From Burkholderiales bacterium RIFCSPHIGHO2_01_FULL_63_240 (GTDB taxonomy: Bacteria > Pseudomonadota > Gammaproteobacteria > Burkholderiales > Burkholderiaceae_C): a DNA stretch of 64,000 nt. The notes beneath the pieces were generated by a model. That model was not told the DNA's origin, did not search any database, and saw only the letters and a program-made list of their open reading frames with translations. Every line of letters begins with the position of its first letter. The first letter of the stretch is position 1. The stretch covers positions 186,001-250,000 of the forward strand of contig MERU01000004.1 of NCBI GenBank assembly GCA_001770725.1, written 5' to 3'. Positions 1-41,629 of the stretch are shown here, in pieces. The translations under genes and the position numbers were made by a program.

Positions 1-681
1 GCCGTTCGGGTTGACCGGGTTGCCCTTGCCGTGGTCCACGCCCTTGTTGAATGGCAGGAAGTTGCTGTCCTTGCCCGCCAGGCGGGTGCACATGTAGACC
101 TCGTCCGGGTCTGCGGCCAGATGCACCAGGCAACGTCCGAACTCGAAGATCGGCTCGTTGGGATCGCGCAGGTTGTACTGCTTGTAGATGGCGTTCCAGA
201 CCGTTTGCCCGGTCCAGGGGTTCTTGAGCTCAATGGTGGCGATGGCCAGGCCATTGACGAACAGCACCATGTCGATGGACTTGAGGCTGTCAGTCTCGCT
301 GTAGTGCACCTGCCGGGTGACGCTGAACACATTGGCCTCGTAGCGGGCCAGCACATCGGGGTTGAGCTGGTTGTAGGGCTGTCGGTAGAGCAAATCGAAG
401 TGGGCGTCATCCACATCGAGCCCCTTCTTGAGCACGGCCAGCACGCTGTCTTTTTTGATCTTCTTGCTGAGCCGCTCCAGCACCAGGCGCTGCCAGTTGG
501 GGCGGTCCTTGAGCTTGGCCACTTCCTGGGGTTGGGTGGATTCCAGAAAATCCCAGAACAGCTGGCGATCGACCGCAAAGGTTTGGTCAAAGTCAGCCGG
601 GTTGCCAACGCGATAGCCATCCTTGACCAAGGCTGTTTCAATGTGCGTTTCAAGCGCGGCTTCGTTGGTTTGACTGACCAT
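1..681 (-). CDS. hsdR: Type I restriction endonuclease subunit R, N-terminal part (runs off left edge)
   Basis: This encodes the motor/nuclease subunit of a type I restriction-modification complex, which cleaves unmodified DNA after ATP-driven translocation. Only the first 227 codons lie in the window; the reading frame is open to position 1. The N-terminal nuclease fold is visible: a hydrophobic strand (VLFVNGLAIATIELKNP) carries the E-x-K half of the PD-(D/E)xK site at about residues 147-150. The ATG at 681 is preceded by a GGGAG ribosome site 5 nt upstream. The gene follows hsdS by 14 nt and so is last in the hsdM operon. The helicase domains are outside the window. Confidence 0.93.
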   Translation of the reverse strand, partial: MVSQTNEAALETHIETALVKDGYRVGNPADFDQTFAVDRQLFWDFLESTQPQEVAKLKDRPNWQRLVLERLSKKIKKDSVLAVLKKGLDVDDAHFDLLYRQPYNQLNPDVLARYEANVFSVTRQVHYSETDSLKSIDMVLFVNGLAIATIELKNPWTGQTVWNAIYKQYNLRDPNEPIFEFGRCLVHLAADPDEVYMCTRLAGKDSNFLPFNKGVDHGKGNPVNPNG

Positions 682-5754: not shown

Positions 5755-6786
5755 ATGTCAGCACCTGCCCCCTGTTCAGCGTCGCAGCCAGATCAAAACA
5801 AGGTATTCCAAGTCCTTGCGCTTTCAGGCGGCGGCTACAGAGGCCTGTACACCGCAAAAGTGCTTGCAGACATCGAGCAGGAGCTCCAGGGGCCCATCGC
5901 AACCAAGTTCGATCTGATCACAGGCACCTCGATTGGCGGGATCTTGGCGCTGGCCCTCGCATTGGAAATCCGGGCGCAAACGATGGTTGACCTCTTCGTC
6001 AAGCACGGCGAGGATATCTTCAAAAAGCGCTGGTCTTTTCTGGGAATGGTGCGCGCACCCTATTCGCCCGCATCGCTCAAGGCGCAGCTTGAGGCCCCCG
6101 AAGTCTTCGGCGACCGACTCCTGGGCGCTTGCCTTCACCCCGTGATGGTCCCCTCCATCAACTACACAACGGGTGAGCCTGTTGTCTTCAAGACGGGGCA
6201 CCACCCCACGTTCAAACGAGACCACAAACATCGCCTGGTGGACATCGGGCTTGCGACCAGTGCTGCGCCGGCCTACTTTCCGCGTCATGTGTTCAATGGG
6301 GGGCAGTATGTCGATGGTGGGTTGTTCGCGAACTCACCGGGACTGCTCGCGCTCCATGAATCGCAGCATTTCTTCGGTAGAGATATCAAGCACATCCGCA
6401 TGCTGAGCATCGGGACGATGTCGTCGAAGTTCACCGTTGACCCTCGGCACAACCGGCAAGGTGGCGCCTACGACTGGGGTGGCTGGAACCCCAGCAACAT
6501 GCCCAAGAGGCTCTTTGGGTTGTCCATCTCCGCACAAGAGGTTCTGACTGACAAGGTGCTGGAGCACCGTCTGGAAAACCGATACCTGCGCATCGATGAC
6601 GACCTGTTCGATGAACGTGCCCGAGCGGTCGCGCTTGACAAGGCCGATGCCCACGCACGTGAGGTGCTGCTCGGCGCCGCCATTGAGCGCTCGAAACGAT
6701 GCATCAGTGACCCACGTCTACTGGCTTTCTTGGAACACTCGCCACCCAAGTCAGTCTTCTTTCACGGCGAACACGCATCTCCTTGA
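5755..6786 (+). CDS. capV: CBASS effector: patatin-like phospholipase CapV
   Basis: This is a membrane-degrading effector that, when bound by a cyclic dinucleotide, hydrolyses phospholipids and kills the infected cell. The 343-residue patatin domain shows the oxyanion loop SGGGYRG (residues 24-30), the nucleophile elbow G-T-S-I-G (Ser59) and the catalytic Asp in DGG (about residue 187). The general role comes from characterised CapV proteins. It is first in a compact operon, with the CD-NTase starting 12 nt downstream. In DncV-type systems the activator is 3',3'-cGAMP, which fits the adjacent synthase clade; that specificity is inferred here. Confidence 0.93.
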   Translation: MSAPAPCSASQPDQNKVFQVLALSGGGYRGLYTAKVLADIEQELQGPIATKFDLITGTSIGGILALALALEIRAQTMVDLFVKHGEDIFKKRWSFLGMVRAPYSPASLKAQLEAPEVFGDRLLGACLHPVMVPSINYTTGEPVVFKTGHHPTFKRDHKHRLVDIGLATSAAPAYFPRHVFNGGQYVDGGLFANSPGLLALHESQHFFGRDIKHIRMLSIGTMSSKFTVDPRHNRQGGAYDWGGWNPSNMPKRLFGLSISAQEVLTDKVLEHRLENRYLRIDDDLFDERARAVALDKADAHAREVLLGAAIERSKRCISDPRLLAFLEHSPPKSVFFHGEHASP

Positions 6787-6798
6787 CCGGGGTCTCTC

Positions 6799-7971
6799 AT
6801 GCTGAAACTCAATCGACTGCTGTTCGCCACTTCCGAGACCGATGTCTTCATCGACCGCCTCGCCCCCACCCCACATCAACGGGAAACCTTGGTTCAGGCC
6901 AAGAACGACATTCGGGATCATCTGCGGCCACGCATACGAGCGGCGACAGTGGCCGTGCTCGGCATGGACAAGGCAGTCGACCCCAAATTCCGCACCCAAG
7001 GCTCCTGGTCGTACAGGACCTGCATCCAGCCGGCATGGCAGCCACCCCAGGAAATGGATTGGGACTTCGGTGTGTACTTACCGGTCACCGTGTGGGAAGA
7101 CAATGGCCCGCCACACAAGATGGCGAAGCTCTACTTCACGCTGGTGGAGAGACTACTGGCGGACCTTTGCACGGACAAGGGTTGGGAACTGATCAAAGGC
7201 AAGGACACCTGCATTAGGATCCAGATCAACAACTGGGCGCACATCGATATCCCTTTGTACGCTGCGCCTGAGGAAGAGTTCGCGACGATCCTGGAAAAGT
7301 CCTTCTCCGCTCAGTTGACGCTTGACTCGGCGCGAGGCGCCCTGGTTGAGAATGCGGCGTTCGGCGAGATCGCAGAACAAGAGTGGGCCGACCTGGATCA
7401 CATCGTGATGGCAACACGGTCTGGCGAATGGAAATCATCAGACCCTGAAGCTGTCTCGAAGTGGTTCCTTGACCGTGTGAAGGAACATACCGATCAGCTG
7501 CGCCGGGTGTGTTGCTACCTCAAGGCTTGGCGTGACCTGCATTGGAAAGCTGGCGATGGGCCCACGTCCGTTTGCATCATGGTGGCCGTCGCACAGAAGT
7601 TCGAAGCGATCCGCGGTCGTGACGATCTGGCTTTGGAGGCGGCGTCCAGGACCCTCGCCAACGCTTTGCGCGGAGATATCCGTGCGCCAGGCATTGACGA
7701 AGGCAAGGAAGACTTCAACAAGCGCTTGAATCCGGCGCAACGGGAAGAGGCTTCAGCCATGGCCAGCACCCTGGCGCAGCAAATTCAGGCTGCGCGACTG
7801 AAGCCCGTGCACACGCCGGGTGATGCCATCGACATCATCCAAAGCCAACTTGGATTGCGCATCCCAATGCGGACCGATCTGGTCGAGCCAGACAGCGGCA
7901 ATGATGCGGTGAGAAGCGTGCCTGCTCGTGAGGTCAGCCGCCCGATCGTCAGAGCCACCACTGCTGGCTGA
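6799..7971 (+). CDS. CBASS CD-NTase, DncV/clade-A-like cyclic dinucleotide synthase
   Basis: The enzyme makes the cyclic nucleotide signal after phage sensing. The nucleotidyltransferase signature is intact: G-S at residues 68-69 (TQGSWSYRT), the metal-binding pair D87 and D89 in EMDWDFGVYLP, and a third acidic residue near 150 in HIDIPLYA. The spacing and the GSW-YRT...PPQ-E-MD block are those of DncV-type enzymes (clade A), whose product is usually 3',3'-cGAMP. The 390-residue length is slightly below DncV's. Its TGA overlaps the cap2 ATG by one base. The C-terminus ends in a short tail, the expected site of Cap2-mediated conjugation. Confidence 0.92.
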   Translation: MLKLNRLLFATSETDVFIDRLAPTPHQRETLVQAKNDIRDHLRPRIRAATVAVLGMDKAVDPKFRTQGSWSYRTCIQPAWQPPQEMDWDFGVYLPVTVWEDNGPPHKMAKLYFTLVERLLADLCTDKGWELIKGKDTCIRIQINNWAHIDIPLYAAPEEEFATILEKSFSAQLTLDSARGALVENAAFGEIAEQEWADLDHIVMATRSGEWKSSDPEAVSKWFLDRVKEHTDQLRRVCCYLKAWRDLHWKAGDGPTSVCIMVAVAQKFEAIRGRDDLALEAASRTLANALRGDIRAPGIDEGKEDFNKRLNPAQREEASAMASTLAQQIQAARLKPVHTPGDAIDIIQSQLGLRIPMRTDLVEPDSGNDAVRSVPAREVSRPIVRATTAG

Positions 7972-9680
7972 TGACCCCGGGTGATGCGCAGCTGACCAAC
8001 GCCCTGCGGTTGCTTCGCATGCGTGGCTTTGAGCCTGCAGGCAACCGTGCCGGCACGCGTTCTTTTGAGGGCGATTTGACTTGCCGTGGTGGCAATGTGC
8101 GCGTTCGGCTGAGCATCACGGACTGGGACTTTCTGCGTTATCCATCGATCATCGTGCTCGATGGCACTGACGGCTTCCCTCCCCTCGTTCCGCACCTGAC
8201 TGCAGAAGGATGGCTTTGCTACTTTGCAGCAGGATCAGTTGTCCTTGATCGCTACAACCCAGCTGAAGCACTCGCTCAGTGTCTTGACCAGGCCAAGCTG
8301 GTCCTTGAACAAATCCGCTTTGATGCGGACTATCGCAGGGGCGACATCCAAGACGAATTCATGGTGCATTGGCTCAATGGCCAATCGACGGCCATCTGGG
8401 ATGTGCTCATTGGCACCGTCGCACTCGGTGCCACCTGTACCAACTACTGGCTCGTCGACATCAACGGTGTGCCGACCGCATTGATCGCAGATTCCGAAAA
8501 GGAAGTTGCGGCCTTCGCTGGAGCACTCGGTGCTTCAGCTCCCGAAAAGACAACCTGCCCGTGCTGGCTGTTCCAAACCGACGTGCTTCCTGTTGTGCCG
8601 GATGTCATGCCATCAACCGTGAAAGCGTTATTCGCCTGGCTAAAGGCGTGGGACAAGGGCATCTCGAACGGCGTTCAGCGTATCCTGGAGAAGGAGCCCC
8701 GATACCTCAAATACAAGCAAGCGACCTTTGCCGTGAAAACGCCCATCGGCTGGCTCGGATTCGGCTTCGATCTCGACCAAGTCCAACGGCTGGGCGCCAT
8801 CAAGAAGCCGCGGCTCTACAAACAGCACCTCCACGGCAAAGGCGGCACACGCGGCATCATGCGATTGTCCATTTCGGAGTTCGGGCCTGCGTTCGTCCAC
8901 AGTCGAAACTTGACTTTCAAGGACCTCAGCGGCCGGCAGATCAAGGTTGTGGGATGCGGTGCGATTGGCTCCTATGTCGCTCTATCTCTGGTTCGACTTG
9001 GCGCTGGAGCCAATGGTGGAAAGTTGACGTTGATCGACCCCGACAAACTCAAACCGGAGAACATCGGAAGGCATGTGTTGGGCTATCCGGCACTGTTCAA
9101 ATCCAAGGCGACCGCCTTGCGTGATGAACTTGTTCGCCAGTTCCCTTTCTCCACCATTGACGCGTGTCCGACTGACGTCCGTGGCGTTCCTGCATTGTTC
9201 TCCGCCGATTTGGTGATCGATGCCACTGGCGAAGAGTCTGTGAGCGAGTTTCTCAATGCCCGCAGAATCGCCGAGGCGACGAAAACACCTTTGTTGCACG
9301 CGTGGATCAAAGGGAATGGGCAGACTGTTCAGACGCTTTGGGTTCAAGGCAGCAAAGGGGGATGCTTCCGGTGCCTGCGGTTGGCAGATCACAAGAACTA
9401 CAGAGAAGAAAGATTCAAGGTCCTTAAAGAGGACCCCGTGCGCAGACTCATCGGGTGCACCGGCTTTACGCCATATGGTGTTGCGGCGCCGATGCATGCC
9501 GCGACATTGGCCACTGAAACCATCCTTGACTGGTTGCAGCGCGATAGCCCAAGCCCCCGGTTTCGCACCCGCTCAGTTGCGAGCGCCGACGTGTTCGAAG
9601 TCAAGAACCAGGATCTCACCCGCCTGGCCGCCTGCCCAGCGTGCGGTACCAATGATGTTGCGATCCCAGCCGTACGGTAG
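7971..9680 (+). CDS. cap2: CBASS Cap2, E1/E2 ubiquitin-ligase-like activator of the CD-NTase
   Basis: Cap2 conjugates the C-terminus of the CD-NTase to target proteins and primes signal synthesis. The 569-residue protein has an N-terminal E2-like domain, with a Cys near residue 83 (EGWLCYF) as candidate active site. A C-terminal ThiF/E1-like adenylation domain has the nucleotide-binding loop VVGCGAIGSY (about 325) and a metal-ligand-like C-x2-C (GGCFRCLR). A Cys near 496 in IGCTGFTPYG is a candidate E1 catalytic Cys. The gene overlaps the CD-NTase gene by one base and cap3 by 29 bases. Together with cap3 it defines a type II CBASS. Confidence 0.92.
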   Translation: MTPGDAQLTNALRLLRMRGFEPAGNRAGTRSFEGDLTCRGGNVRVRLSITDWDFLRYPSIIVLDGTDGFPPLVPHLTAEGWLCYFAAGSVVLDRYNPAEALAQCLDQAKLVLEQIRFDADYRRGDIQDEFMVHWLNGQSTAIWDVLIGTVALGATCTNYWLVDINGVPTALIADSEKEVAAFAGALGASAPEKTTCPCWLFQTDVLPVVPDVMPSTVKALFAWLKAWDKGISNGVQRILEKEPRYLKYKQATFAVKTPIGWLGFGFDLDQVQRLGAIKKPRLYKQHLHGKGGTRGIMRLSISEFGPAFVHSRNLTFKDLSGRQIKVVGCGAIGSYVALSLVRLGAGANGGKLTLIDPDKLKPENIGRHVLGYPALFKSKATALRDELVRQFPFSTIDACPTDVRGVPALFSADLVIDATGEESVSEFLNARRIAEATKTPLLHAWIKGNGQTVQTLWVQGSKGGCFRCLRLADHKNYREERFKVLKEDPVRRLIGCTGFTPYGVAAPMHAATLATETILDWLQRDSPSPRFRTRSVASADVFEVKNQDLTRLAACPACGTNDVAIPAVR

Positions 9681-10119
9681 CACTGAGGCACGGGTTCTCA
9701 TTGAGCCCAAAGTTCTCGCTCGTCTGTCCATCTACAGGCAACTGCGGCCCCGAGACCCTGAGTCGGGTGGAATCCTCTTGGGATACCGGCGAGGAGAGCA
9801 CCTGCATGTTGTTGACGCCACCGAGCCCCATCCACGCGATCGCCGGAGCCGCTTTGGATTCCACCGTAAGGAGTCGTACCACCAGTCCATGGCTGTCAGG
9901 AAATGGACTGAAAGCGGCCAGAAGATGGACTACCTCGGGGAGTGGCATACGCATCCAGAGCAGCTGCCAACGCCTTCATCAACCGACATCAGAAGCTGGC
10001 TGGACATCACCGACAACAAGACCAATCCCATGGTGTTTCTAATCATCGGTATCTCCAATGTCTGGGTGGGTGTCGGGCTTGGTAGCGGCCACAGATCAAC
10101 CGACTTGCTGGTGCCATGA
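9652..10119 (+). CDS. cap3: CBASS Cap3, JAMM/Mov34 isopeptidase
   Basis: Cap3 removes Cap2-made conjugates and tunes CBASS. The 155-residue JAB/MPN domain has the complete metalloprotease signature: a Glu in PESGGILLGYR and the H-x-H...S-x2-D zinc motif in EWHTHPEQLPTPSSTD. The start is ATG 9652 (or the adjacent ATG 9655), inside the 3' end of cap2; there is no strong ribosome site, so expression is probably coupled to cap2. It is last in the CBASS operon. A perfect 12-bp palindrome (CGCATGCATGCG, 10121-10132) lies just after the stop codon. Confidence 0.9.
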   Translation: MMLRSQPYGSTEARVLIEPKVLARLSIYRQLRPRDPESGGILLGYRRGEHLHVVDATEPHPRDRRSRFGFHRKESYHQSMAVRKWTESGQKMDYLGEWHTHPEQLPTPSSTDIRSWLDITDNKTNPMVFLIIGISNVWVGVGLGSGHRSTDLLVP

Positions 10120-10303
10120 GCGCATGCATGCGTGGACAACGCCACCGTCAATCGACGGGATTTGGGGGGCTTCTTCGCATGGATAACACGCCGTGAGGCT
10201 CAAGTCATGTTGATTTGGCACCATCTCTCCAGCAGACTGAAAGGGCTACCTGTGGACATCGCGTTCACGCAGCCTTCAATGGAGATCTAGGTCTCCCAGA
10301 AGT
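10120..10303. other. Gap between the CBASS operon and the hairpin-rich plasmid-like segment
   Basis: No gene is supported here. The only structure seen is the palindrome at 10121-10132 and short dyads such as GGAGA...TCTCC near 10280-10296. The change in gene organisation across this gap makes it the likely boundary of the defence module, but no repeat or attachment site is recognisable. Confidence 0.4.
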
Positions 10304-10545
10304 CCAGCCATGCTGGCGTCGCAGTCGTGACCTGCCTTGTAGAAGCTGAACCTCGGTTCAGCTAGGCCATTTCAATGGCCTAGTGCCTCGTTCAGCCCTC
10401 ATGCTGAACACCGTGTCATCGGCGCACCTCACCGTGCCGCCGCCGAGCCGCTTCAACCGCCAGGGCTGAAGCATCCCAAGTTGGGGAACCACCATGTTCC
10501 CCATCGGGACGAGGCGTTCCCCTTCACACCCTGAAGGAGAACGTC
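10304..10545 (+). ncRNA. Structured leader, copy 1 (candidate radC-type RNA motif) with tandem hairpins
   Basis: The leader begins with the hairpin CCAGC-CAT-GCTGG (10304-10316), then a 21-nt core (10317-10337, starting CGTCGCAGTCGT). Perfect hairpins follow at 10345-10362 (GCTGAAC/GTTCAGC), 10363-10382 (TAGGCCATT/AATGGCCTA) and 10390-10409 (GTTCAGC/GCTGAAC), with another at 10450-10472 (GCTTCA/TGAAGC). At 10483-10522 a GGGGAAC arm can pair with either of two GTTCCCC copies (10496-10502 or 10516-10522), a possible switch. A strong GAAGGAG site precedes ATG 10546. The core recurs at 13203-13223 upstream of radC with one substitution and a different but equally paired 5' stem. Identification as the published radC RNA motif is from memory and untested. 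Confidence 0.6.
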
Positions 10546-10722
10546 ATGAACGCAGGCCCTCATGCGACAAGGGAAACGCGCGCCATTTGCGTGCTGTTGG
10601 GTGGCTCCGGGCTTGCCCGCGAGCCTGTGATCAGTCCTGCAGTGCTACCCGCATTGCTGAAGCCTGCGCCGCCTGTCTCGCGACAGGTCGAACAGGTCAT
10701 GGCTTACCGTGCTGCCGCCTGA
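10546..10722 (+). CDS. Small 58-residue protein, unknown function
   Basis: ATG 10546 follows an ideal GAAGGAG ribosome site 7 nt upstream and opens a 58-codon frame ending at TGA 10720-10722. The predicted product starts MNAGPHATRETRAICVLLGG and ends QVMAYRAAA; no domain is recognised. It is preceded by the long structured leader, as the neighbouring genes are by theirs. Gene calling rests on the ribosome site and leader organisation rather than on homology. A longer overlapping frame from 10494 lacks these signals. Confidence 0.6.
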   Translation: MNAGPHATRETRAICVLLGGSGLAREPVISPAVLPALLKPAPPVSRQVEQVMAYRAAA

Positions 10723-11024
10723 ACCACTTGACTGTGGTCCAGCATCAGCACATCGATACCGTGGCGATTAACCTCGCCCGCAGTTCGGGTCGAACACGAG
10801 ACGAAGCTCTGGCCTTCGTTGCCTCGCCCGTCTTGTGCCCGCCCGCGTTCGCATCCCATTGAAGTCAAGCCCGATTGATCGGGAGCCCTCGACTTCATGG
10901 GATGCGAACCGTCTTTCATGTGCCTCGGCCATTCGGCTGTGCTGCACTTCCACGCAACCCTTTGGGGAGTCCACCGTCTCCCCGCCGGGATAGGTGTGCC
11001 CTCCTCCTTTCTGGAGTTCACACC
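10723..11024 (+). promoter_or_regulatory. Hairpin-dense leader of the 168-residue gene
   Basis: Short perfect hairpins recur: ACCAC-N6-GTGGT near 10722, GTTCG-GGT-CGAAC near 10785, ACGAAG-N7-CTTCGT near 10801, the long inverted repeat at 10848-10908, and GGGGAG-N8-CTCCCC at 10964-10983. Just before the gene, GGTGTG and CACACC bracket the ribosome-site region, and a CTCC-rich arm faces the GGAG, so the ribosome site could be masked in one fold. No protein-coding frame is convincing here. Confidence 0.5.
10848..10908. repeat. Long inverted repeat, 18 paired bases per arm
   Basis: The left arm, 10848-10866 (TTCGCATCCCATTGAAGTC), pairs with 10891-10908 (GACTTCATGGGATGCGAA), broken only by one bulged T. 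The loop itself contains the smaller perfect hairpin CCCGAT-TG-ATCGGG. It is the largest dyad in the segment and could act as an RNA stem, terminator without a U tract, or single-stranded DNA structure. Confidence 0.85.
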
Positions 11025-11531
11025 ATGAATCATGAAGCGTCCCGCGTTCGCCCCAAACGCAGCTGTGTCGAGATTGAAGAGTCTCGCGCCTGGATGGGCT
11101 TTTACCGCCGTGTGGGTCAGGACCCTGTTATGGCCGCCGAAGTCATGGCCCAGTTGGAAGCTGATCCACTGATGAAGCGCAACCACCTGGCCCTGTACCT
11201 GTGCTGCAAGCAATCCTTGCGGACACACAAAGCCACAGCCGCACGCAACAGGCGCATCGGTCAGTTCGTGCGTTGGCTGTTCCATGGCGTTTTTGTTGCG
11301 CCAGCTTTGGCACTTCGCCACATGCTGCTCCAAGGCGGCGACATCGCCGTTGAATGCCTGCCACCTACTGCCAACGAACCGGCAGCAACCCAAGTCAAGC
11401 GCCTGAAGAAAGCGCCGGAGTTTGCCCAGGCTCATTCGTCTTTTGAAGCTCAAGCTTCTGTGCCCAAGGACGCGCCATCCGCCACCTCGGGAGAGCCGTC
11501 AAAGCCCAATGCTGTGTCTCAGACAGCCTGA
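11025..11531 (+). CDS. Hypothetical protein of plasmid/ICE type, 168 residues
   Basis: The start ATG 11025 follows CTGGAG with good spacing and a hairpin-rich leader. The product begins MNHEASRVRPKRSCVEIEES, has a basic N-terminal half (GRVG-like and MKRNHL segments), one possible hydrophobic helix near residues 83-105 (VRWLFHGVFVAPALAL) and a low-complexity Ala/Pro/Ser tail. No family was recognised. Its position in a run of small leader-preceded genes ending in radC suggests mobile-element accessory functions; this is inference. Confidence 0.6.
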   Translation: MNHEASRVRPKRSCVEIEESRAWMGFYRRVGQDPVMAAEVMAQLEADPLMKRNHLALYLCCKQSLRTHKATAARNRRIGQFVRWLFHGVFVAPALALRHMLLQGGDIAVECLPPTANEPAATQVKRLKKAPEFAQAHSSFEAQASVPKDAPSATSGEPSKPNAVSQTA

Positions 11532-11703
11532 TTGCCCGCACGTCAAGACCACCGCGTCTTGACCGTGCCGGGGCCAGCGCCCTGGCCCAGCCCAGATCGA
11601 CCCACGCGCCTGCCCATCTGCTGGTGGTGCATGCCGCGTCCTCCCCCATTTCGCCCGTATCTGCCCGAGTGGCAGTGCGGCACACCCACGGAAGGAATTT
11701 CCC
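11532..11703 (+). promoter_or_regulatory. Hairpin leader of the 76-residue gene
   Basis: Two strong stems follow the upstream stop: GCAC-GTCAAGAC with GTCTTGAC-CGTGC (one bulge, about 11538-11568) and GGGCCAG with CTGGCCC (about 11571-11589). A GGAAGGAA ribosome site precedes ATG 11704. The arrangement repeats the pattern seen at the other genes of this segment. Confidence 0.45.
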
Positions 11704-11934
11704 ATGACCACTGCAACCGACGCCTTGTGCGCCATCGAGAAGCGTGCCCACCGGGCCATCGTGCAGGAACTGCGCTTGCTGATCAAGGAAGTGCAGGCCC
11801 TTCAGCCTGGCCTGGCAGGTGATGACAGCGCACATGCCCATGCACTGCTGCTGAAGCTGGAGCACCTCCGACAAAGCCAAGTGGTGGACAGCGTCTGCGA
11901 TCAGCCGCCCATCCGGTTGGCCGCGCAAGGCTGA
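11704..11934 (+). CDS. Small hypothetical protein, 76 residues
   Basis: ATG 11704 has a GGAAGGAA ribosome site. The product is Ala/Leu-rich and predicted mainly helical (HRAIVQELRLLIKEVQAL, then ALLLKLEHLRQSQ), as in small coiled-coil or regulatory proteins. No family was recognised. It shares the leader-plus-small-gene format of its neighbours. Confidence 0.55.
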   Translation: MTTATDALCAIEKRAHRAIVQELRLLIKEVQALQPGLAGDDSAHAHALLLKLEHLRQSQVVDSVCDQPPIRLAAQG

Positions 11935-12019
11935 TACCGACCTGATAGCGAAACAACACGCCTGCGGGGCCACGGCCCGAGCGGCGGTGCGTCCCCAGGC
12001 TTCCACACAAGGAATCCTC

Positions 12020-12691
12020 ATGACCACCGTCACACTCAACCTGGAGCAAAAGCTCTATGTCATCACGGAGCGATCAGGCCACAGTTGCTTTGGCTTTGAC
12101 AATGCTCGCGATCATGCCAACCAGATCGCACAGCAACTCGACCAAAGCCACCTGGCCTTTGCGCCAGGCGACTACGCCACGCTGGCGGGCTATCAGAAAT
12201 ACCTGACGGCCACAGCCGCATGGGGCCGATCCCCACTGAACCACCGCACCTACTTTGCGCCCGGGACCGATCCCAAAGCGGCCAAGGTGCTGGAGTCCTA
12301 TCGCCGAACTGGCGAGAAGATCCGCCTGATACTTGGCGACCTGGCCACGGGTGAACCGTGGCTTGATGAGCATGGCGTGGTCGGCCGCATTAGCCGATCT
12401 GGCGGCATGCTCAAAATCCCCCTGCTGGTCGAGCCTGGCGAGTCAGGTGGCGGCGCCATTTTGACCGACTGCATCCTGTGCCTGGTGGACTGGCAGACCG
12501 GCAACACGCCGTATCGGCATCCAGCCTATCGCGAGGCCAACTTGAGCCTGTCGCCCAATGAATGCCCTGACCTGCCATGGGCCGTGAGGCGAGGCAGCGA
12601 TGCCATCGCTTGTTTCGCGGACATCAGCAAGGCCGCTGCCTACCTGGCCTTCATGCGCGGCGCCACCATCGAGCCACGTGTCTTTGCTTGA
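12020..12691 (+). CDS. Hypothetical plasmid/ICE protein, 223 residues
   Basis: The chosen ATG 12020 follows an AAGGAA site. The product begins MTTVTLNLEQKLYVI and looks globular and soluble, without signal peptide or membrane segment; it contains Trp/Tyr-rich stretches (YQKYLTATAAWG; DWQTGNTPYRHPAYRE) but no recognised catalytic motif. Codon use and the ribosome site support a real gene. The GC-rich leader 11935-12019 holds only weak dyads. Confidence 0.6.
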   Translation: MTTVTLNLEQKLYVITERSGHSCFGFDNARDHANQIAQQLDQSHLAFAPGDYATLAGYQKYLTATAAWGRSPLNHRTYFAPGTDPKAAKVLESYRRTGEKIRLILGDLATGEPWLDEHGVVGRISRSGGMLKIPLLVEPGESGGGAILTDCILCLVDWQTGNTPYRHPAYREANLSLSPNECPDLPWAVRRGSDAIACFADISKAAAYLAFMRGATIEPRVFA

Positions 12692-12717
12692 TGAACCGCC
12701 AGGCGGCGTGCTCCATG

Positions 12718-12966
12718 CTACGCCGCTGAACGGCATTGCTGGTACTCCCGGTCGATCAGCCAATGCAGAAACTGGGTGTCCCTGGAGACGCCCCAATAGT
12801 GCGCCTTGCATTGCGCGATGTAGGCATCCAGGTCAGCCAGCGTGCGGATGCCGACAGGCTCCAAATCGGTGATCAGCTTGAAGCGCTCAATCTCTCGCCG
12901 AGTGAGCCGGATATGGAGGCCAAAACGGATCATGGTCGTGCTCGTTGCATGGGTTCGAGTCGCCAT
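12718..12966 (-). CDS. Small hypothetical protein on the opposite strand, up to 82 residues
   Basis: This frame encodes a compact basic protein (RFGLHIRLTRREIERFKLI... then HYWGVSRDTQFLHWLIDREY). The internal ATG at 12933 is an equally likely start, since no clear ribosome site marks either. It is convergent with the 223-residue gene. No family was recognised; the composition is protein-like, but the gene is supported only by its frame. Confidence 0.45.
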   Translation of the reverse strand: MATRTHATSTTMIRFGLHIRLTRREIERFKLITDLEPVGIRTLADLDAYIAQCKAHYWGVSRDTQFLHWLIDREYQQCRSAA

Positions 12967-13323
12967 CTTGGCGAAATTTCAGGCCCGTGTCACGGCTTTG
13001 GCCACCCACTGAAACAAGATTTCTGTACTGAACTTCAGGTGATATTCAGCTATCACCCAGGCGTGCACTCGACAATGACCCGGTTCCATGGGGCCTTGTC
13101 CATGGCATGCAGCGATCAAGGCTTGAACGCTTCTGACCATCACGACACACTGCCCACCGCTACCTGCATTCCATCGCGGAATGCGCTCCGACCTTGAGTC
13201 GGCGTCGCAGTCGTCACCTGCCTCATTGACCGTGCTGGCCTCGCGTCAGCACATCCCGAGCGGGAACATCCATCCCCTCGGGACTGGACGTTCCCGCTTT
13301 TCCTTTTTGTGAAGGAGAAATCC
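12967..13323 (+). ncRNA. Structured leader, copy 2 (candidate radC-type RNA motif) upstream of radC
   Basis: Perfect hairpins occur at 13038-13057 (GGTGATA/TATCACC), 13086-13105 (CCATGG/CCATGG) and 13166-13184 (GCATTCC/GGAATGC). Then comes CCGAC-CTTGA-GTCGG (13188-13202), the 21-nt core shared with copy 1 (13203-13223), a GTGCTG/CAGCAC stem (13232-13252) and a GCGGGAAC/GTTCCCGC stem (about 13260-13297). The last stem is followed by TTTTCCTTTTT, which could make it a terminator or attenuator just before the AAGGAG ribosome site of radC. The 5' stem differs from copy 1 at several bases yet stays paired, which supports an RNA structure. Confidence 0.6.
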
Positions 13324-13905
13324 GTGAATGTCACCCACTTGTCCAGTGCCGAACTGGTCAGCGAGTTACTCGCCGCACCTGTTCGCCAAGCTCCCCTCCC
13401 TTTGCCCTGCGCCTGCGATGCAGCAGCGACATACCAGGCCGTTGAGCACGCTCCCCCTGAGCTGGCCCACAAACTCAGCATCGCACGTGAGCTGCTGCTG
13501 CGAGACATGCGCGCCAAAATGCTGGATGGACCGGTCATGGCGTCACCCAAGGTTGTCAAGGACTGGTTGTGCATGTACTGCGCCGGTTTGGAGCACGAGG
13601 TGTTCCTTGTGCTGTACCTTGACGCCCAGCATGTTCTGATCGAGGCCGAAGAGATGTTCCGGGGAACATTGACCCAAACGTCTGTTTACCCTCGTGAGGT
13701 CGTCAAAAGCGCGCTGGCCCACAACGCGGCATCCGTTTTGTTGGCCCATAACCACCCGAGCGGTCAATTGTCGCCAAGCAGTGCAGACGAACTCTTGACC
13801 CAGACGCTGAAATCCTCTTTGATGATGGTGGACGTGCGCGTGCTCGACCATTTCGTCGTAGGAGGAGACCGCGTCCTGTCTTTTGCGGAACAGGGTTTGC
13901 TGTGA
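13324..13905 (+). CDS. radC: RadC-like JAB-domain protein
   Basis: The 193-residue protein is a RadC/UPF0758-family metalloprotease-like fold. The JAMM signature is present in the second half: LLAHNHPSG-Q-L-SPSSADE, with the H-x-H and the S-x2-D zinc motif, preceded by EVFLVLYLDAQHVL. Compared with chromosomal RadC it lacks much of the N-terminal helix-hairpin-helix region, as is common for copies on mobile elements. GTG 13324 is chosen because AAGGAG lies 6 nt upstream. The biochemical function of RadC is not established; DNA repair involvement is disputed. Confidence 0.85.
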   Translation: MNVTHLSSAELVSELLAAPVRQAPLPLPCACDAAATYQAVEHAPPELAHKLSIARELLLRDMRAKMLDGPVMASPKVVKDWLCMYCAGLEHEVFLVLYLDAQHVLIEAEEMFRGTLTQTSVYPREVVKSALAHNAASVLLAHNHPSGQLSPSSADELLTQTLKSSLMMVDVRVLDHFVVGGDRVLSFAEQGLL

Positions 13906-14279: not shown

Positions 14280-14314
14280 GGGCGTCGCGCCCTCAGGCCG
14301 ACGCCCATTTTTTT
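14280..14314 (+). terminator. Rho-independent terminator after the radC segment
   Basis: The 8-bp stem GGGCGTCG/CGACGCCC (14280-14287 with 14299-14306) is followed by ATTTTTTT. It ends rightward transcription of the DUF5983-like gene and overlaps the 3' end of the convergent SbcC-like gene. Confidence 0.85.
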
Positions 14315-16779
14315 GCGCCATCTACAGTCACCCCGCGATCGCGCATCGCATCCAGGTCGATCACGGCGTCGGCCATGGCGGTCAACTCCGGCGTTTGCGA
14401 CACAAAAAACTCCCGCTGGTAGCCGCCCACGCGCAGCACCTCGCGCTTCATGGCCATGAACATGCGTTTGCGCTCGGGGTCCAGCGCCCCATCGGCTTCG
14501 TCAGAAAACAAGGCGTCGTAGCGCCGACCTGCATGCTGCGCCAGGTACAGCGCCACCGCCCGCGTCAGGCACTCGTTGACCCACACGCGCTCCCCTCCGC
14601 TCATCAGGCCCAGGCTCTTGCAGTCCCCCGACTCGCCGTCATGCACGACGATGTCAAAGCCCTCGCGTTGCTCTCCCTTGCCTGTCTCCACCAGCGTGAG
14701 GATGGACACGGTGAAGCGTGGGCCATAACAGGCCAGCAGCAAGTCATTGGCCAATCCAGACAAAGCCGGGCCTGCATCGTCAATGGCCAGGGCGATCAGG
14801 CCATCGTTGCTCATGCATCGGGCAAACAGGTTCCAACTTCCCAAGCTGTCCTCCGCTCGGGCCATGCGGGATTGCACCTGCACACGCCGATGAGCCAGGG
14901 CCCGCACCTGAGCCATCAATTCAATCCTGGACTGGGCATCGCGCTCGGCGGCCAAGTGGGCTTGCTCAGCGATGGACAAGGCCAGGCGCGCTTGGGCCTC
15001 AGCCTGGGCGGCAGCAGCCAGCATCTGATGGTCAAAGGGCGTTGGCAAACCATGAAGCACCGCGTCCAGGCGATTGAGCGCCTCCCGGAAATGCTGCGCC
15101 TGTTGCACCAGCGCCTGCGCGATCCGCTGGCGTGTTGCCTCGATCTGTTGGCGCTCGGCCTGCTCTTCGGTCGTCTCGTTGCCTTGGGTCCGGCCAAGCT
15201 CTGCCATCAATGAGGACAGTTCAAGCTCAAGGGTCTGCAAGGCGGCGCAGGCTTGGCTGATCTGGCCCGCCCTGGTCGCCAGCAGCGACAAGCGAGACAC
15301 CCGTGTTCGAGCCATGTCGCCCAAGCGTTCGGCCCGGGCCAGCGCTTGCGGCGCCTGGGCCAGCTCTTCGTACCGATGGCGGATCAGGGAGAGTTCCTGT
15401 TCTGCGAGGGCCTTGTCCTGCGCCAGGCGGCTGATCTGGCCTTGTGCGCTGGGTATGAGGGTCTGGGCTTCATGCGCATCCCCCAGCAGCTTGCATTGCC
15501 CTTGCAGATCGGTGCCTGCACAAGGCACCTCACCAACCAGGCCAAAGCGGTGCGCCAACTCCTGAGCCTTCAAAGCCGCCCTGCCTGCCTCCAGTTCAAT
15601 GCTGGCGAGCTTCTGCACCAGCAGTCGTTCCGTGGCCTGTGCATCCCTCATCGCCTGCACCTGCTGTCGGCACACAACGATCTCCTGTTGCCTGGCACTC
15701 AGCACCAGTTCAGCCAGAGGCAGGCGATGTGCCGCACGCTGGACAGCGCCAGCCTCTTCGAGCACGTTCAGGCACTGGCGACGTGACTGCATGACCGTGC
15801 TCTGCCGAGACTGCGCATGCGTGCGCCGACTGTTGATGCGTTGCGCCAAGCGCTCCAGGCCCTGCAACGCATCCTGCTCTTGAGCCTTGAGCCCCTCGAT
15901 GGCTCGCGTGCCGGCAGCGATCAACGCCTTGCGCTCCTCAAGCAACTGCGTACGGCGCGCCTCGGTGCTCTGTGACTGATCCCGTTGAGCCTGCAAGAGG
16001 GCATGGCCAACCCGATGCCCATCCAATGCCTGCAGCGCTTGTTGTCGCTCAATCAAGGTCTGCGCAACTCGGTCAGATGCACCTTGCAAGCGATGCAGCC
16101 CCGCATCCAGGCGAGCCTGCTCCGCATCCAGCCCGGACAACTCCTGCCTGATGGCCGACAGCCCGGCCTTGATCAGCTTGGCGGTGTCATTGGCCTTTTG
16201 CCCCAACGCTCGGATTTCTTCCTGGCCGAGCAAGTCGGACAGCAGGCTCTTGATCTCGGCATTGCGGTAGGTGCTGAGCTGGCGCTTGCCCTGCGCCGAG
16301 AACGCCGAGGTGAAGAAGGTATCAGCGCTGCCACAAATCGCTTCAACACAGCGGGTGTAGGTCTCGACCTTGCCGTCGGACACCAGACCATCATCAAGGC
16401 ACACGGGGCGCCATTGGCCCGCATCACTGAGCGCATGCAAATAGGCCTCGGTCTTGCGGCGCCCGTTGAACCGGATCACCACTTGGGATCGATAGCACCG
16501 CCCCTCATGTGACCAGGTCAGATCCTTCTCGTTCTCGGGCAGACAGACATGGTCGTAGTAGGAAAAGCCGCCGGGGCCGCTCAAGGCCGCCCGTGACGGC
16601 ATCGTCAGATAGGGGTGCATGTTGTCCATCAGCGTGGTCTTGCCCCGCCCATTGGCCCCGGCAATGGCGACGAGTTCAGCGCCATCGGCCAGGCGCTCGA
16701 AGTCCAGGGTCAACACGTCTTGCCCCAGGCCATAACGGATGCCCCGAAAGCCTTTGAGGGTGAGTTTCAGTGGTTGCAT
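14293..16779 (-). CDS. SbcC/Rad50-like ATPase
   Basis: This 828-residue SMC-like ATPase has Walker A GANGRGKTT at residues 41-49, two long coiled-coil arms rich in Gln, Arg and Ala, an ABC signature LMSGGE (about 726) and Walker B LFSDEADGALD (about 757). Between the arms lies CAGTDLQGQC (about 420-430), a Cys-x8-Cys apex in place of the classical CxxC zinc hook. Such ATPases pair with an SbcD nuclease to process DNA ends and hairpins. The partner is present at 29777-31039 on the same strand, separated by about 13 kb of unrelated genes. ATG 16779 has a GGAG site 6 nt upstream. Confidence 0.85.
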   Translation of the reverse strand: MQPLKLTLKGFRGIRYGLGQDVLTLDFERLADGAELVAIAGANGRGKTTLMDNMHPYLTMPSRAALSGPGGFSYYDHVCLPENEKDLTWSHEGRCYRSQVVIRFNGRRKTEAYLHALSDAGQWRPVCLDDGLVSDGKVETYTRCVEAICGSADTFFTSAFSAQGKRQLSTYRNAEIKSLLSDLLGQEEIRALGQKANDTAKLIKAGLSAIRQELSGLDAEQARLDAGLHRLQGASDRVAQTLIERQQALQALDGHRVGHALLQAQRDQSQSTEARRTQLLEERKALIAAGTRAIEGLKAQEQDALQGLERLAQRINSRRTHAQSRQSTVMQSRRQCLNVLEEAGAVQRAAHRLPLAELVLSARQQEIVVCRQQVQAMRDAQATERLLVQKLASIELEAGRAALKAQELAHRFGLVGEVPCAGTDLQGQCKLLGDAHEAQTLIPSAQGQISRLAQDKALAEQELSLIRHRYEELAQAPQALARAERLGDMARTRVSRLSLLATRAGQISQACAALQTLELELSSLMAELGRTQGNETTEEQAERQQIEATRQRIAQALVQQAQHFREALNRLDAVLHGLPTPFDHQMLAAAAQAEAQARLALSIAEQAHLAAERDAQSRIELMAQVRALAHRRVQVQSRMARAEDSLGSWNLFARCMSNDGLIALAIDDAGPALSGLANDLLLACYGPRFTVSILTLVETGKGEQREGFDIVVHDGESGDCKSLGLMSGGERVWVNECLTRAVALYLAQHAGRRYDALFSDEADGALDPERKRMFMAMKREVLRVGGYQREFFVSQTPELTAMADAVIDLDAMRDRGVTVDGAKKWASA

Positions 16780-36354: not shown

Positions 36355-38025
36355 ATGAAACTCAAAAAACTGGTGATCGCCATGATTGCCGCCACAGCAC
36401 TGAGCGCCGCCGCATATGGCCTGTACGCATTGGGCATGCAAAGAGGCATGGGCATGAATGCCGATGCTGATCAGCGCCCCGCTCAACCCGCCACTGAAGC
36501 AACCGCCACCCAAGCCCTGCCGCAAAGCGTGGCCGAGGGTGAAGACGCCACCCGGCGCCACATCGCCGATGGCCTCAAGGCTGGCGACATGGACCCGGTC
36601 ACCGGCAAGAAGGTCCTGTACTACCACGACCCCATGGTGCCGGGCAACAAGTTCGACAAGCCCGCCAAGTCGCCTTTCATGGACATGATGCTGGTGCCTG
36701 TTTATGCAGACAGCGACGGAGACCAGGGCAAGGTCACTGTGAGCCCACGCATCCAGCAGAACCTGGGCGTGCGCACCGCAGAGGTCACCGAGGGGGTGCT
36801 GTCGCCCCAAGTTTCTGCCGTGGGCAGCATCGCTTACAACGAACGCGACCAGGTTGTCATGCAAGCACGGGCCGCCGGGTTTGTGGAGCGGTTGCATGTG
36901 CGCGCCACGCTGGATGCGGTCAAGCAAGGTCAACCCCTGGCCGATCTCTATGTGCCTGAATGGGTGGCTGCACAAGAAGAGTTTTTGTCTGTTCGCCGCA
37001 TGCAGGGCAACGACCTGGGCAGCTTGGTCGATGGCGCTCGCCAGCGCATGCGTCAGGTCGGCATGAGCGAGGATCAGATCAAGCGCGTCGAGCAAACCAG
37101 CAAGACCCAGCCGCGCGTCACCCTGGTGGCACCCATCAACGGCGTGCTCAGTGAGTTGATGGTGCGTGAAGGCATGTCCGTGATGCCTGGGGCCACCTTG
37201 TTGCGCATCAACGGCGTGTCCACGGTTTGGGCCAACGCCGAGGTGCCGGAGAGTCAAGTCGCGCAACTGCGCCCAGGCACCAAGGTGCAGGCCCGCAGCC
37301 CGGCTGTGCCTGGCACCACCTTTGAAGGCACGGTTCAGGCCCTGGTGCCAGAGGTCAACCCTGGCACCCGCACCCTCAAGGCCCGCGTGCAATTGAACAA
37401 CCCAGGCATGCACCTGGTGCCGGGCATGAGCGTGGCCATGCAGTTCATGGACATGCGTGCCGAGAAGGCCTTGTTGATCCCCACAGAGGCAGTCATCCAG
37501 ACGGGCAAGCGCACCGTGGTGATGCTGGCCGAAGACAAAGGGCGGTTCCGCCCGGTCGAGATCGAGGCGGGCATCGAGAGCGATGGGCAAACCGAGGTCA
37601 AGCGCGGTCTGGATGTGGGCCAGCGTGTGGTGGTGTCATCGCAGTTCCTCATCGATTCGGAAGCCAGCCTCAAAGGTGTTGAGGCGCGGCTCAATGGCGC
37701 ACCGGCACCCACCATGGACAACACCGCCCCCAGACACGAAGGTCAGGGCAAGGTGGAAGCCCTGGCAGACGAGGCCATCACCTTGTCGCACGGGCCGATT
37801 GCCTCACTCAAGTGGGGCGCCATGACGATGGATTTCAAGGTGCCGCTCAAGGGCGGGCTGCCCCGCCATCTGGAAGTGGGGGACCCGGTGAGCTTTGAGT
37901 TCTACATGGATGCCGATGGCATGCCGCAGTTGACCCGACTGTCGCACCTGGCACCTGAGCCCCAGCCTGCGTCCGAGGCACCCCATCACACCCATGGCCC
38001 AGCCAAGCAAGGGAGCAAGCCATGA
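36355..38025 (+). CDS. cusB: CusB membrane-fusion protein with fused C-terminal CusF-like domain
   Basis: The 556-residue adaptor has an N-terminal membrane anchor and a heavy-metal-binding segment ([20 protein letters not shown], then MDMMLVPVY). The HlyD-type hairpin and barrel region follow ([33 protein letters not shown]). After a linker, residues from about 470 form a CusF-like domain ([20 protein letters not shown]), which carries the Trp and Met Cu(I) ligands. The final tail is His-rich (APHHTHG). A separate CusF gene also occurs at 46028-46390. GGAG precedes ATG 36355, and the stop overlaps cusA (ATGA). Confidence 0.92.
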
Positions 38026-41000
38026 TCGCCCGCCTGATCCGTTGGTCCATCACCAACCGCTTCCTGGTGCTGCTGGCCACCTTGATGCTCAGTGCATGGG
38101 GGGTGTATTCGGTCGCGAGAACGCCCCTGGACGCCTTGCCCGACCTGTCTGATGTGCAAGTCATCATCCGCACCACCTACCCGGGCCAGGCACCGCGCAT
38201 CGTCGAGAACCAGGTCACCTACCCCTTGACCACGACCATGCTGTCGGTGCCTGGCGCCAAGACGGTGCGGGGGTACTCCTTCTTCGGCGACTCTTATGTC
38301 TACGTGCTGTTCGAGGACGGCACCGATCTGTACTGGGCCCGCTCGCGTGTGCTGGAGTACCTGAACCAGGTTCAGTCGCGTTTGCCTGCCAGCGCCAAGG
38401 CGTCGCTGGGGCCCGACGCCACGGGCGTGGGCTGGATTTACCAATACGCCCTGGTGGACCGTGGAGGCACACAGGATGCGGGTCAGTTGCGTGCCTTGCA
38501 GGACTGGTTCTTGAAGTACGAACTCAAGACCGTGCCCAATGTGGCGGAAGTGGCCTCGGTGGGCGGCATGGTGCGCCAGTACCAAGTGGTGTTGGACCCC
38601 GGCAAACTGGCCACCTACGGCATCCCGCACACCCAGGTGGTTGAGGCCATACAGAAGGCCAACCAGGAAGCGGGCGGCTCGGTGCTGGAGTTGGGCGAGG
38701 CCGAGTACATGGTGCGCGCCTCGGGCTACTTGCAATCGCTGGACGATTTCCGACAAGTGCCCTTGATGACCACCGACGCAGGCGTGTCAGTGCGCCTGGG
38801 GGATGTGGCCCGCATCCAGATGGGGCCCGAGATGCGCCGGGGCATTGGTGAATTGGACGGTGAGGGAGAAGCCGCTGGCGGCGTGATCGTGATGCGCTCA
38901 GGCAAAAACGCGCTGGAGACGATTGCTGCGGTGAAGGCCAAGCTCAAGACCCTGCAAGCCAGCTTGCCCAAAGGGGTCGAGATCGTGCCGGTGTACGACC
39001 GATCCACCCTCATCGAGCGCGCGGTGGAGAACCTCTCGCACAAGCTGCTCGAAGAGTTCGCCGTGGTGGCCGTGGTGTGCTTTGTCTTTTTGTTTCACCT
39101 GCGCTCGGCCCTGGTGGCCATCATCTCGCTGCCCCTGGGCATCCTGGCGGCTTTCATCGTCATGCACTACCAAGGGGTGAACGCCAACATCATGTCGCTG
39201 GGAGGCATCGCCATTGCCATCGGCGCCATGGTGGATGCAGCCGTGGTGATGATCGAGAACGCACACAAGCACTTGGAACACTGGGAGCAAGCCCACCCCG
39301 ATCAATCGCTGGAAGGTGCCGAGCGCTGGAAGGTCATCGGCGATTCGGCGGCCGAGGTCGGGCCCGCGCTGTTTTTCTCACTGTTGATCATCACGCTGTC
39401 TTTTGTGCCAGTGTTCACGCTGGAGGCGCAAGAGGGGCGGCTGTTCTCGCCGCTGGCCTTCACCAAAACCTATGCCATGGCGGCGGCAGCGGGCTTGTCG
39501 GTCACGCTGATCCCCGTGCTGATGGGCTACCTGATCCGTGGCCGCATCCCCAGCGAGCAGAGCAACCCGCTCAACCGACTCCTGATTGCCATCTACCGCC
39601 CACTGCTCAATGCAGTCTTGCAAGGCCCCAAGCGCACGCTGGCGGTGGCCGCCGTGTTGCTGTTGCTCAGCTTGTGGCCCTTGCAGCACATTGGCGGTGA
39701 GTTCATGCCCAAGCTGGACGAGGGCGACCTGCTCTACATGCCCACGGCCCTGCCAGGCTTGTCCGCAGGCAAGGCCGCCGAGCTGCTTCAGCAGACCGAC
39801 CGTTTGATCAAGACCGTCCCCGAGGTGGCCAGTGTCTATGGCAAGGCAGGCCGCGCCGAAACCGCGACCGACCCGGCACCCATGGAGATGTTCGAGACCA
39901 CCATCCAGTTCAAACCCAAAGACCAATGGCGCCCCGGCATGACGCAAGACAGGCTGGTTGAAGAACTGGACCGCATTGTGAAAGTACCCGGCTTGGCCAA
40001 CATCTGGGTGCCCCCCATCCGCAACCGCATCGACATGCTGGCCACCGGCATCAAGAGCCCCGTGGGCGTCAAGGTGGCGGGCACCGACCTGGCCACCATC
40101 GACCGACTCACGGGTGAGATCGAGCGTGCGCTCAAAGATGTGCCCGGTGTCAGCAGCGCCTTGGCTGAGCGCCTGACCGGTGGGCGCTATGTCGATGTCA
40201 ACATCCGCCGCGATGCCGCCGCGCGCTTTGGCATGAACATCGCTGATGTGCAGTCGCTCATCAGCTCGGCAGTGGGCGGCGAGAACATTGGCGAGACGGT
40301 GGAAGGCTTGCAGCGCTTCCCGATCAACCTGCGCTACCCACGCGAGACACGTGATTCGCTGGAAAAACTGCGCACCTTGCCCATCGTGAACGAGCGTGGA
40401 GAGCGCCTGGTCTTGTCCGACGTGGCCGACATCCGCGTGACCGATGGCCCGCCCATGCTGCGCAGCGAGAACGCCCGCCTGTCAGGCTGGGTGTATGTGG
40501 ACATCCGGGGGCGGGATCTGCGATCAGCGGTGCAGGACATGCAAAAGGCCGTTTCAGCTAAGGTCAAGCTGCCACCGGGCTACTCAGTGTCCTGGTCAGG
40601 CCAGTTCGAGTTCCTGGAGCGGGCCACGGCCAAGCTCAAGGTGGTGGTGCCCTTCACGCTGCTGATCATCTTCGTGCTGCTGTACCTGACATTCGGTGCA
40701 TTTGACGAGGCCTTGCTGATCATGGCCACGCTGCCCTTTGCCCTGGTGGGCGGCATCTGGTTGCTCTACCTGCTGAGCTACAACCTGTCGGTGGCTGGGG
40801 CAGTCGGGTTCATTGCATTGGCTGGCGTATCCGCCGAGTTCGGCGTGATCATGCTGCTCTACCTCAAGCAGGCTTGGGGCGAGCGCATCGACAAGGGCCA
40901 GGTCAGTGTCGATGACTTGCTGGACGCCATCCGTGACGGTGCCGTGCTGCGCGTGCGCCCCAAGGCCATGACGGTGGCAGTGATCCTCGCGGGCTTGCTG

Positions 41001-41183
41001 CCGATCATGTGGGGTGCAGGCACGGGCTCCGAGGTCATGCAGCGCATTGCTGCACCCATGGTCGGGGGCATGATCACGGCGCCACTGCTGTCGATGTTCG
41101 TGATTCCGGCTGCGTACCTGCTGATTCGCCGCAGCAAAAAGGCAAGGCGCGCCACGCAAGCGCCTCACATGAAACATGCCTGA
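38022..41183 (+). CDS. cusA: CusA heavy-metal RND efflux pump
   Basis: The 1053-residue inner-membrane pump has two RND repeats of six helices with large periplasmic domains. The HME-RND signature lies in helix 4 ([19 protein letters not shown], about residue 405), carrying the proton-relay acidic residues. Met residues in the porter domain ([12 protein letters not shown], then [14 protein letters not shown]) are positioned as in CusA for Cu(I)/Ag(I). It exports metal from periplasm and cytosol through CusB and CusC. It overlaps cusB by four bases and ends the operon. Confidence 0.95.
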
Positions 41184-41197
41184 AGGCTGTCACGCCA

Positions 41198-41452: not shown

Positions 41453-41483
41453 CAGAAACTCCGAATGGTTTTTGGTGGGTTCA

Positions 41484-41513: not shown

Positions 41514-41562
41514 GCACCTGTTTTCAATAACCATGCCATCAAAGCAAGTAATTGCCACATGA

Positions 41563-41592: not shown

Positions 41593-41629
41593 ATCCACGA
41601 CAAATATCAACCACCTATACGGGCACACC

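Follow-up and report, generated by a model that had tools for sequence, protein, structure and literature searches.

Two nearly identical short sequences precede two different genes in Burkholderiales bacterium RIFCSPHIGHO2_01_FULL_63_240, and the question is what kind of element they represent. The window, i.e. the whole stretch of 64,000 nucleotides that was analyzed (contig MERU01000004.1, positions 186,001 to 250,000, forward strand), contains them at 10315-10337 and 13201-13223, ahead of an open reading frame of 58 residues and of radC, respectively. A sequence-only reading had described them as a core of 21 nucleotides with a one-base difference, accompanied by hairpins of differing sequence, and had proposed a structured RNA family, perhaps "radC-type". 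The pair is real, and the repeat extends to 23 nucleotides with a single difference, G versus C at the loop position N. Allowing up to three mismatches, the core 20-mer matched only these two sites in the window, while shuffled sequences gave an expected number of 0.03 and a maximum of 1, and none of 100 shuffles contained two matches. The reported hairpins, CCAGC-CAT-GCTGG and CCGAC-CTTGA-GTCGG as well as those that follow the cores, were all found in place, and the two genes were also named correctly: the RadC protein matches PF04002 (E 9e-42), and tblastn relatives of the 58-residue protein are encoded downstream of 28 of the 122 copies of the core described below. Both full leaders fold more stably than dinucleotide shuffles (10268-10548, z -7.4; 13154-13330, z -5.7; for each, 0 of 200 shuffles was as good).

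Two copies alone are insufficient to establish covariation, and the proof is supplied by homologues. Collapsing identical 60-nucleotide keys yielded 122 distinct copies, and a further identity filter left 58 non-redundant ones. The alignment of the 117 copies with long flanks is conserved from position -3 to about +19, with little conservation outside when the classes are pooled, and the invariance of the core partly reflects selection, because the copies were gathered by the core pattern. The core had been read as a linear motif; it is indeed a conserved repeat, but it holds a hairpin of its own, GCAG/CTGC with the loop TCGTNAC. Its consensus is GC(A/G)G-UCGWNAC-C(U/C)GC, and the loop of seven nucleotides is nearly fixed. 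RNAalifold, applied to three classes separately (33, 36, and 24 sequences), placed the hairpin GCAG-UCGUNAC-CUGC in the core each time. As it was invariant in these alignments, it was tested in matches retrieved with the third pair left open. This search of 37 genomes gave at least 150 matches, and those listed came from 31 of the 37. Among the 120 GT-prefixed sequences of the 150 matches listed, the third pair was A-T in 85, G-C in 29, G-G in 4, and C-G and G-T in one each, and A-C never occurred. Sixteen stretches were retrieved, 13 of them because of a variant core and 3 carrying the usual sequence; candidate L181, which sits inside a coding frame, was dropped. Cores of the GCGG/CCGC type in the retrieved stretches and in L199 and L200 precede alpA, methylase-like, 58-residue, RadC-like, and recombinase genes, of which alpA was identified by PF05930 and the remaining names were read by eye from translations.

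Within each class the flanks of the core form a row of hairpins. HP2, which immediately precedes the core, is almost free in sequence, and five or more uninterrupted Watson-Crick pairs form its stem in 62% of the 58 non-redundant copies versus 11% in shuffles. A hairpin downstream of the core is similarly enriched (57% versus 12%). In the alignment of the 58-residue class (33 sequences) 10 pairs have changed on both sides, with 38 such cells, a level reached in 0 of 500 shuffles, and 98.3% of the 956 cells are paired, compared to 29.5-44.6% for slid structures. These cells contain 75 G-U pairs versus 16 non-standard combinations, an excess that points to folding of the coding-sense strand. Among the 24 sequences of the radC class, 8 pairs have changed on both sides (as many in 4 of 500 shuffles), with 33 such cells (0 of 500). 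The two window cores belong to a structured RNA family, and the compensatory change that the sequence-only reading had seen between two copies is borne out by the core stem, by HP2, and by the alignments of the 58-residue and radC classes.

The genes behind the core form a restricted set. In 110 of the 122 copies, one of seven gene types follows on the same strand within at most 1300 nucleotides. This gene encodes a recombinase (34 + 2 copies), the 58-residue protein (28) or, where that is nearest, the 168-residue neighbor of the latter (4), RadC (23), AlpA (13), a protein of a 97-residue type that no Pfam family matches (4), or a protein called methylase-like (2), a name assigned by eye, with no Pfam match for a 290-residue piece. 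None of the 122 copies has one of these gene types upstream on the opposite strand; the 168-residue gene lies upstream on the same strand in 5 copies. As the query proteins were drawn from these same regions, it is the contrast between strands that serves as the test. Of the 12 unassigned copies, seven (L016, L047, L057, L059, L068, L072, and L096) have less than 530 nucleotides downstream, three (L090, L109, and L140) lack a match but resemble family members, and two (L026 and L120) may be chance occurrences. The source genome itself holds five copies (C4:172697+, C4:196318+, C4:199204+, C4:262678-, and C10:12798+), of which the second and third are the two window leaders. On contig C4 they lead a recombinase gene, the 58-residue gene, radC, and alpA, and on C10 a second recombinase gene; both recombinases contain Phage_int_SAM_2 and Integrase_1 domains. 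The recombinase and alpA leaders flank the C4 region on its two sides and point toward one another. The alpA copy runs the opposite way in the element, yet it precedes its own gene on that gene's strand, with alpA starting 229 nucleotides after the core, and the direction of the leader follows transcription rather than the strand of the element.

Promoter-like boxes precede the hairpins. Recombinase leaders have TTGAC-16..19-TCNACT or TATCCT in 32 of 32 tested (0.01 expected from shuffles), leaders of the 58-residue, 168-residue, and methylase-like genes have A[TCG]ACT in 30 of 33 (1.9 expected), radC leaders have A[CAG]ACT or ACAAT in 23 of 23 (1.6 expected), and alpA leaders have a TANRGT-like box in 9 of 13 (0.7 expected); the patterns were picked after viewing the sequences, which are related, and copies with too little upstream DNA were left out. 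A strict scan of the window for the sigma-70 consensus found no promoter, so the boxes rest on their conservation. Their distance to the core is 49-51 nucleotides in 22 of the 31 box-bearing recombinase leaders and 79 nucleotides in 20 of 25 of the 58-residue class, one further entry of which is a short-locus artefact. Taken together, covariation, gene set, and strand show a strand-specific structured leader that is found near a promoter-like box and is common to several operons.

The recombinase leaders measure about 700 nucleotides, look non-coding on inspection, and have structure along most of this length. In an alignment of 18 sequences (766 columns), z was below -6 in 5 of 11 overlapping windows, in which 11-18 pairs have changed on both sides, compared to column shuffles, which are a lenient control; window 455-585 showed no structure. 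The leader of the source genome (L162:4698-5395, from C4:172697 on) is conserved together with its relatives, with no Rfam match in L001, and such leaders may form an RNA family of their own. Apart from the hairpin of the core, the 13 alpA leader sequences yielded a single seven-pair helix, in which 4 pairs have changed on both sides. These leaders (e.g., L029, L051, and L126) share a second block, GCGTTCCTTGGCAGCGG...CCGCTGCGACAGAGCTGGTCATG, ahead of alpA, with TTGGC/GCCAA and AAGGAATGATCATG-like ends.

All parts of the two window leaders lie on the plus strand. In leader 1 the position that it shares with its class suggests a promoter-like TTGATT-17-CAGACT at 10210-10238, a weak match. It is followed by hairpins HP0 (GTGGAC/GTTCAC, 10252-10268; 2 of 6 pairs changed on both sides), HP1 (10274-10302; 7 of 11 pairs), and HP2 (CCAGC-CAT-GCTGG, 10304-10316), which abuts the core at 10315-10337 with its inner hairpin GCAG-TCGTGAC-CTGC (10321-10335). 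Downstream are HP3 (10345-10362, -10.6 kcal/mol), HP4 (TAGGCCA/TGGCCTA, 10363-10382), HP5 (GTTCAGC/GCTGAAC, 10390-10409), and the hairpin GGGGAAC-CACCAT-GTTCCCC (10483-10502). The last hairpin, GGCGTTCCCCTTCA-CACCC-TGAAGGAGAACGTC (10513-10545, -16.9 kcal/mol), pairs an anti-Shine-Dalgarno arm with the Shine-Dalgarno region ahead of the ATG at 10546. The GGGGAAC arm has a second possible GTTCCCC partner at 10516-10522, and the choice between the two could switch leader 1. The conserved 58-residue reading frame (10546-10722) has no Pfam or NCBIfam family, and the 168-residue reading frame downstream of it (o73, 11025-11531) is likewise without a family.

Leader 2 has a putative promoter-like TTGAAC-17-CACACT (13123-13151), HP1 (GCATTCC/GGAATGC, 13166-13184), HP2 (CCGAC-CTTGA-GTCGG, 13188-13202), the core at 13201-13223 with the inner hairpin GCAG-TCGTCAC-CTGC (13207-13221), and HP3 (13232-13252, -11.3 kcal/mol). 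A long hairpin, AGCGGGAAC...GTTCCCGCT (13259-13298, -27.0 kcal/mol), is followed by a T-rich tail and resembles a terminator; it is mutually exclusive with a TCCCGAG/CTCGGGA pairing. The Shine-Dalgarno hairpin of radC, TTTTCCTT/AAGGAGAA (13298-13319, -7.7 kcal/mol), differs in form from that of leader 1. The radC-family gene probably occupies 13324-13905: its reading frame opens with GTG at 13309, and GTG 13324 has the better Shine-Dalgarno fit. More generally, in the radC and 58-residue classes a GGYGUUC segment near the start codon forms a helix with GAACRCC in the Shine-Dalgarno region. The similarity of AGUCGUNAC to 16S rRNA is presumably a chance resemblance.

How might such a leader act? 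Our favored interpretation, to which we give an even chance, is that a single kind of promoter-proximal 5' leader RNA, of which the window sites are two copies, serves several operons of one mobile island. The RNA would start about 45-75 nucleotides upstream of the core, and the last of its variable hairpins, one to three in number, would abut the conserved core hairpin. One factor, a protein or an RNA of the island or the host, would then read the loop on all leaders, and the output in the radC and 58-residue classes would be the opening or closing of the hairpin that hides the ribosome-binding site. Island functions would thereby be switched jointly, as one regulon.

Several results weigh against this interpretation. 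The core hairpin is weak (-2.6 kcal/mol) and absent from the minimum-energy fold of both full leaders; in leader 2, folding of the 5' part does include it. A search for a cis partner of the core revealed no clear complement, and such a partner was rejected, since the longest complement downstream was not longer than in shuffles in classes A (6.78 versus 6.80), B (5.56 versus 6.01), and C (4.17 versus 4.90); class D gave a weak excess (6.92 versus 6.07, 13 copies). The count of pair types in the radC class does not stand out, as 44 of 500 shuffles reach it, and RNAalifold on a MAFFT alignment of the recombinase class recovers no HP2. In that class the core is also about 700 nucleotides from the gene, which is far for direct control of a ribosome-binding site. 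Covariation at the variable pair of the Shine-Dalgarno helix speaks for the interpretation (T-A in 17, C-G in 11, T-G in 1, and another combination in 8 of 37 leaders, some of these 8 being mis-parsed or shifted pairings), but these leaders had been found by a pattern that fixes the neighbors of the tested pair. Predicted accessibility of the Shine-Dalgarno region, compared to shuffles, was 0.25/0.31 (8 leaders), 0.17/0.24 (9), and 0.19/0.19 (3), and thus not clearly lower. The GGGAAC/GTTCCC double arm occurs in 23 of 28 leaders of the 58-residue class and in 2 of the 4 that lead to o73. It is rarer in the radC class (6 of 23 leaders) and absent from the recombinase, alpA, cl8, and methylase-like classes.

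A strong rival, even if we regard it as rather unlikely, is antitermination of the put or nut type, in which the nascent hairpins and the core would alter RNA polymerase, with or without the help of a factor, and let it pass terminators in the leader and operon. It stays strong because the core keeps a set distance from the promoter-like box, while the gene starts, as located with tblastn, lie 77 to 989 nucleotides from the core across copies. The terminator-like hairpin and T-rich tail of leader 2 would also fit, as would an element common to several unrelated operons. However, no conserved intrinsic terminator is apparent across the classes, and a terminator scan of the region was at background (3 found versus 2.1 expected). 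In addition, put RNAs have fixed stem sequences, whereas the stems vary freely here.

Two explanations at the level of DNA fare worse. The leaders could be structures of single-stranded DNA, entry promoters or protein sites on transferred DNA, as raised for STAXI in the accessible part of Weinberg 2010 (PMC2864571). Several of the downstream genes are indeed DNA-handling genes of a mobile element, and in the perfect HP2 stems of the 58 non-redundant copies G-T pairs are no commoner than A-C, i.e., the asymmetry expected of G-U pairing is absent. We nevertheless consider this idea improbable, given the promoter-like boxes upstream, the G-U excess in the 58-residue class, and the orientation of the alpA copy, which tracks transcription. 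Still less probable is a double-stranded operator in the initially transcribed region with incidental hairpins: it would suit a core nearly invariant in sequence, in copies gathered by the core pattern, but compensating changes in the core stem and the covariation of HP2 would be needless for a duplex site.

Least probable of all, and very unlikely, is a diverged member of the Rfam radC RNA RF01754, which would explain position, copy number, and radC among the genes, but leaves the copies unmatched by the model and with another core. The accessible part of the description (Weinberg 2010, PMC2864571) shows the likeness, a multi-hairpin leader with a conserved core in several copies per genome (4 in G658), and the position ahead of radC and other element genes in several copies is shared. 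Of the label "radC-type", this analogy stands and the identity does not. True members have another core hairpin and loop, a GCAGCC/GGCUGC helix with a loop of 11 nucleotides, which our copies lack, and the gathering cut-off of 40 bits was not reached. No RF01754 match was found at any of the five copies of the source genome, the two window copies included; a genome search with this model, which scored 150 of 612 candidates, gave 18 matches at other places, the best of them with E 0.9. With Rfam 15, the whole window had no family at E<=1 and none at its threshold; the two leader pieces at E<=10 had four chance-level matches far below threshold, none to RF01754. Twenty loci scanned at gathering thresholds gave only the nhaA-I RNA in L057, away from the copies, and seven at E<=1 only a weak RT-15 elsewhere in L077. 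Given these negative scans, we class the family as a multi-copy leader RNA of mobile elements and not as radC RNA. In G658 (L165-L168) four Rfam radC RNAs lie within 45 kb, and one radC RNA leader (L167) has, by eye, a GGGGAAC...GTTCCCC-like stretch before the gene; an expression module common to this leader and the present family is possible.

The int-alpA RNA is linked to int and alpA genes, and the present family also precedes recombinase and alpA genes. It exists as an Rfam family (excerpts of PMC12370729), but no covariance-model match was found in all-Rfam scans of the window and 25 other loci, 20 of which were scanned at gathering thresholds only. STAXI, as far as the accessible text tells (Weinberg 2010, PMC2864571), likewise lies near genes for binding or manipulating DNA in mobile elements; its repeated pseudoknot is its own, and no STAXI covariance-model match occurs in the window. 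Literature searches found nothing for the core strings or for radC RNA and radC motif, and within these limited searches the present family is apparently not in print.

How widespread is the family? Of the 399 genomes sampled from the host family, 37 carry the core with one mismatch, and these represent 25 of 141 genera; a control with the backward sequence gave 7 single matches in 7 genomes. In a scan of named species at least 119 stretches carry the core, and most of the 80 titles shown belong to genera of the Burkholderiales type, for example Aquabacterium, Rubrivivax, Leptothrix, and Acidovorax; the others include Thauera, Dechloromonas, and Accumulibacter. Locus L058 of the cultured Aquabacterium commune DSM 11901 contains two cores. 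Viral contigs contained neither exact matches to the core nor relatives of the 58-residue protein, and four leader queries had no BLAST match in plasmids. Scans with model R1, which score only the best 18-23 candidates per genome and may thus miss copies, gave 5 of 369 genomes of the class with E<=0.01 and 2 of 300 genomes of the order at E<=1e-4, the source genome and G840. The rows of models R1 and A5 were picked for a perfect flush HP2, and their results are not independent evidence. The best R1 match beyond the source genome (L206, 36.2 bits) was rejected, as an open coding frame on the opposite strand covers it, and L207, L209, and L211 have no core near the match.

The region resembles the intY-alpA-radC genomic islands of Pseudomonas, which lie next to the transfer-messenger RNA gene and are transduced by a jumbo phage (accessible part of PMC12595487). 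Recombinase and alpA at opposite ends, radC, and phage-defense cargo are found here as well, the true ends being unmapped. The accessible text of PMC12595487 mentions no leader RNA. No tRNA or transfer-messenger RNA gene was detected in the pieces of 18-19 kb (L162 and L163) that hold recombinase and alpA, in an element with unmapped ends. A search with TIGR03759 matched nowhere, controls included, and is uninformative. The cargo in the window includes an operon of a CBASS (cyclic oligonucleotide-based antiphage signaling system) at 5755-10119 with a phospholipase (NF041079) and a cyclic GMP-AMP synthase (NF041078) by NCBIfam, a ThiF/prokaryotic-E2 protein, and a last gene read by eye as JAB-like. 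Adjoining radC on the minus strand (14293-16779) is a gene for an 828-residue AAA_23/SMC-like ATPase (PF13476) without NCBIfam match. Cargo resembling metal-resistance genes lies within 38022-56192; it includes heavy-metal P-type ATPases (41630-44089 and 53832-56192) and, ahead of them, a resistance-nodulation-division pump (38022-41183, PF00873).

To our knowledge, the coordination of recombinase, activator, and establishment genes in integrated islands is poorly understood. The present results add a family without a match in Rfam 15, as judged from the window scan, and the shared leader may be an uncatalogued switch by which one signal acts on several island functions. We tentatively raise the idea, which we hold to be somewhat doubtful, of an island-wide RNA regulon, in which one factor would read UCGWNAC on the leaders of recombinase, alpA, radC, methylase-like, and other genes and would decide excision and establishment jointly. 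If this were true, the recombinase leader would be a structured RNA of about 700 nucleotides of its own kind. The common RNA hairpin would offer a direct handle, as it would mark the regulon and predict new members.

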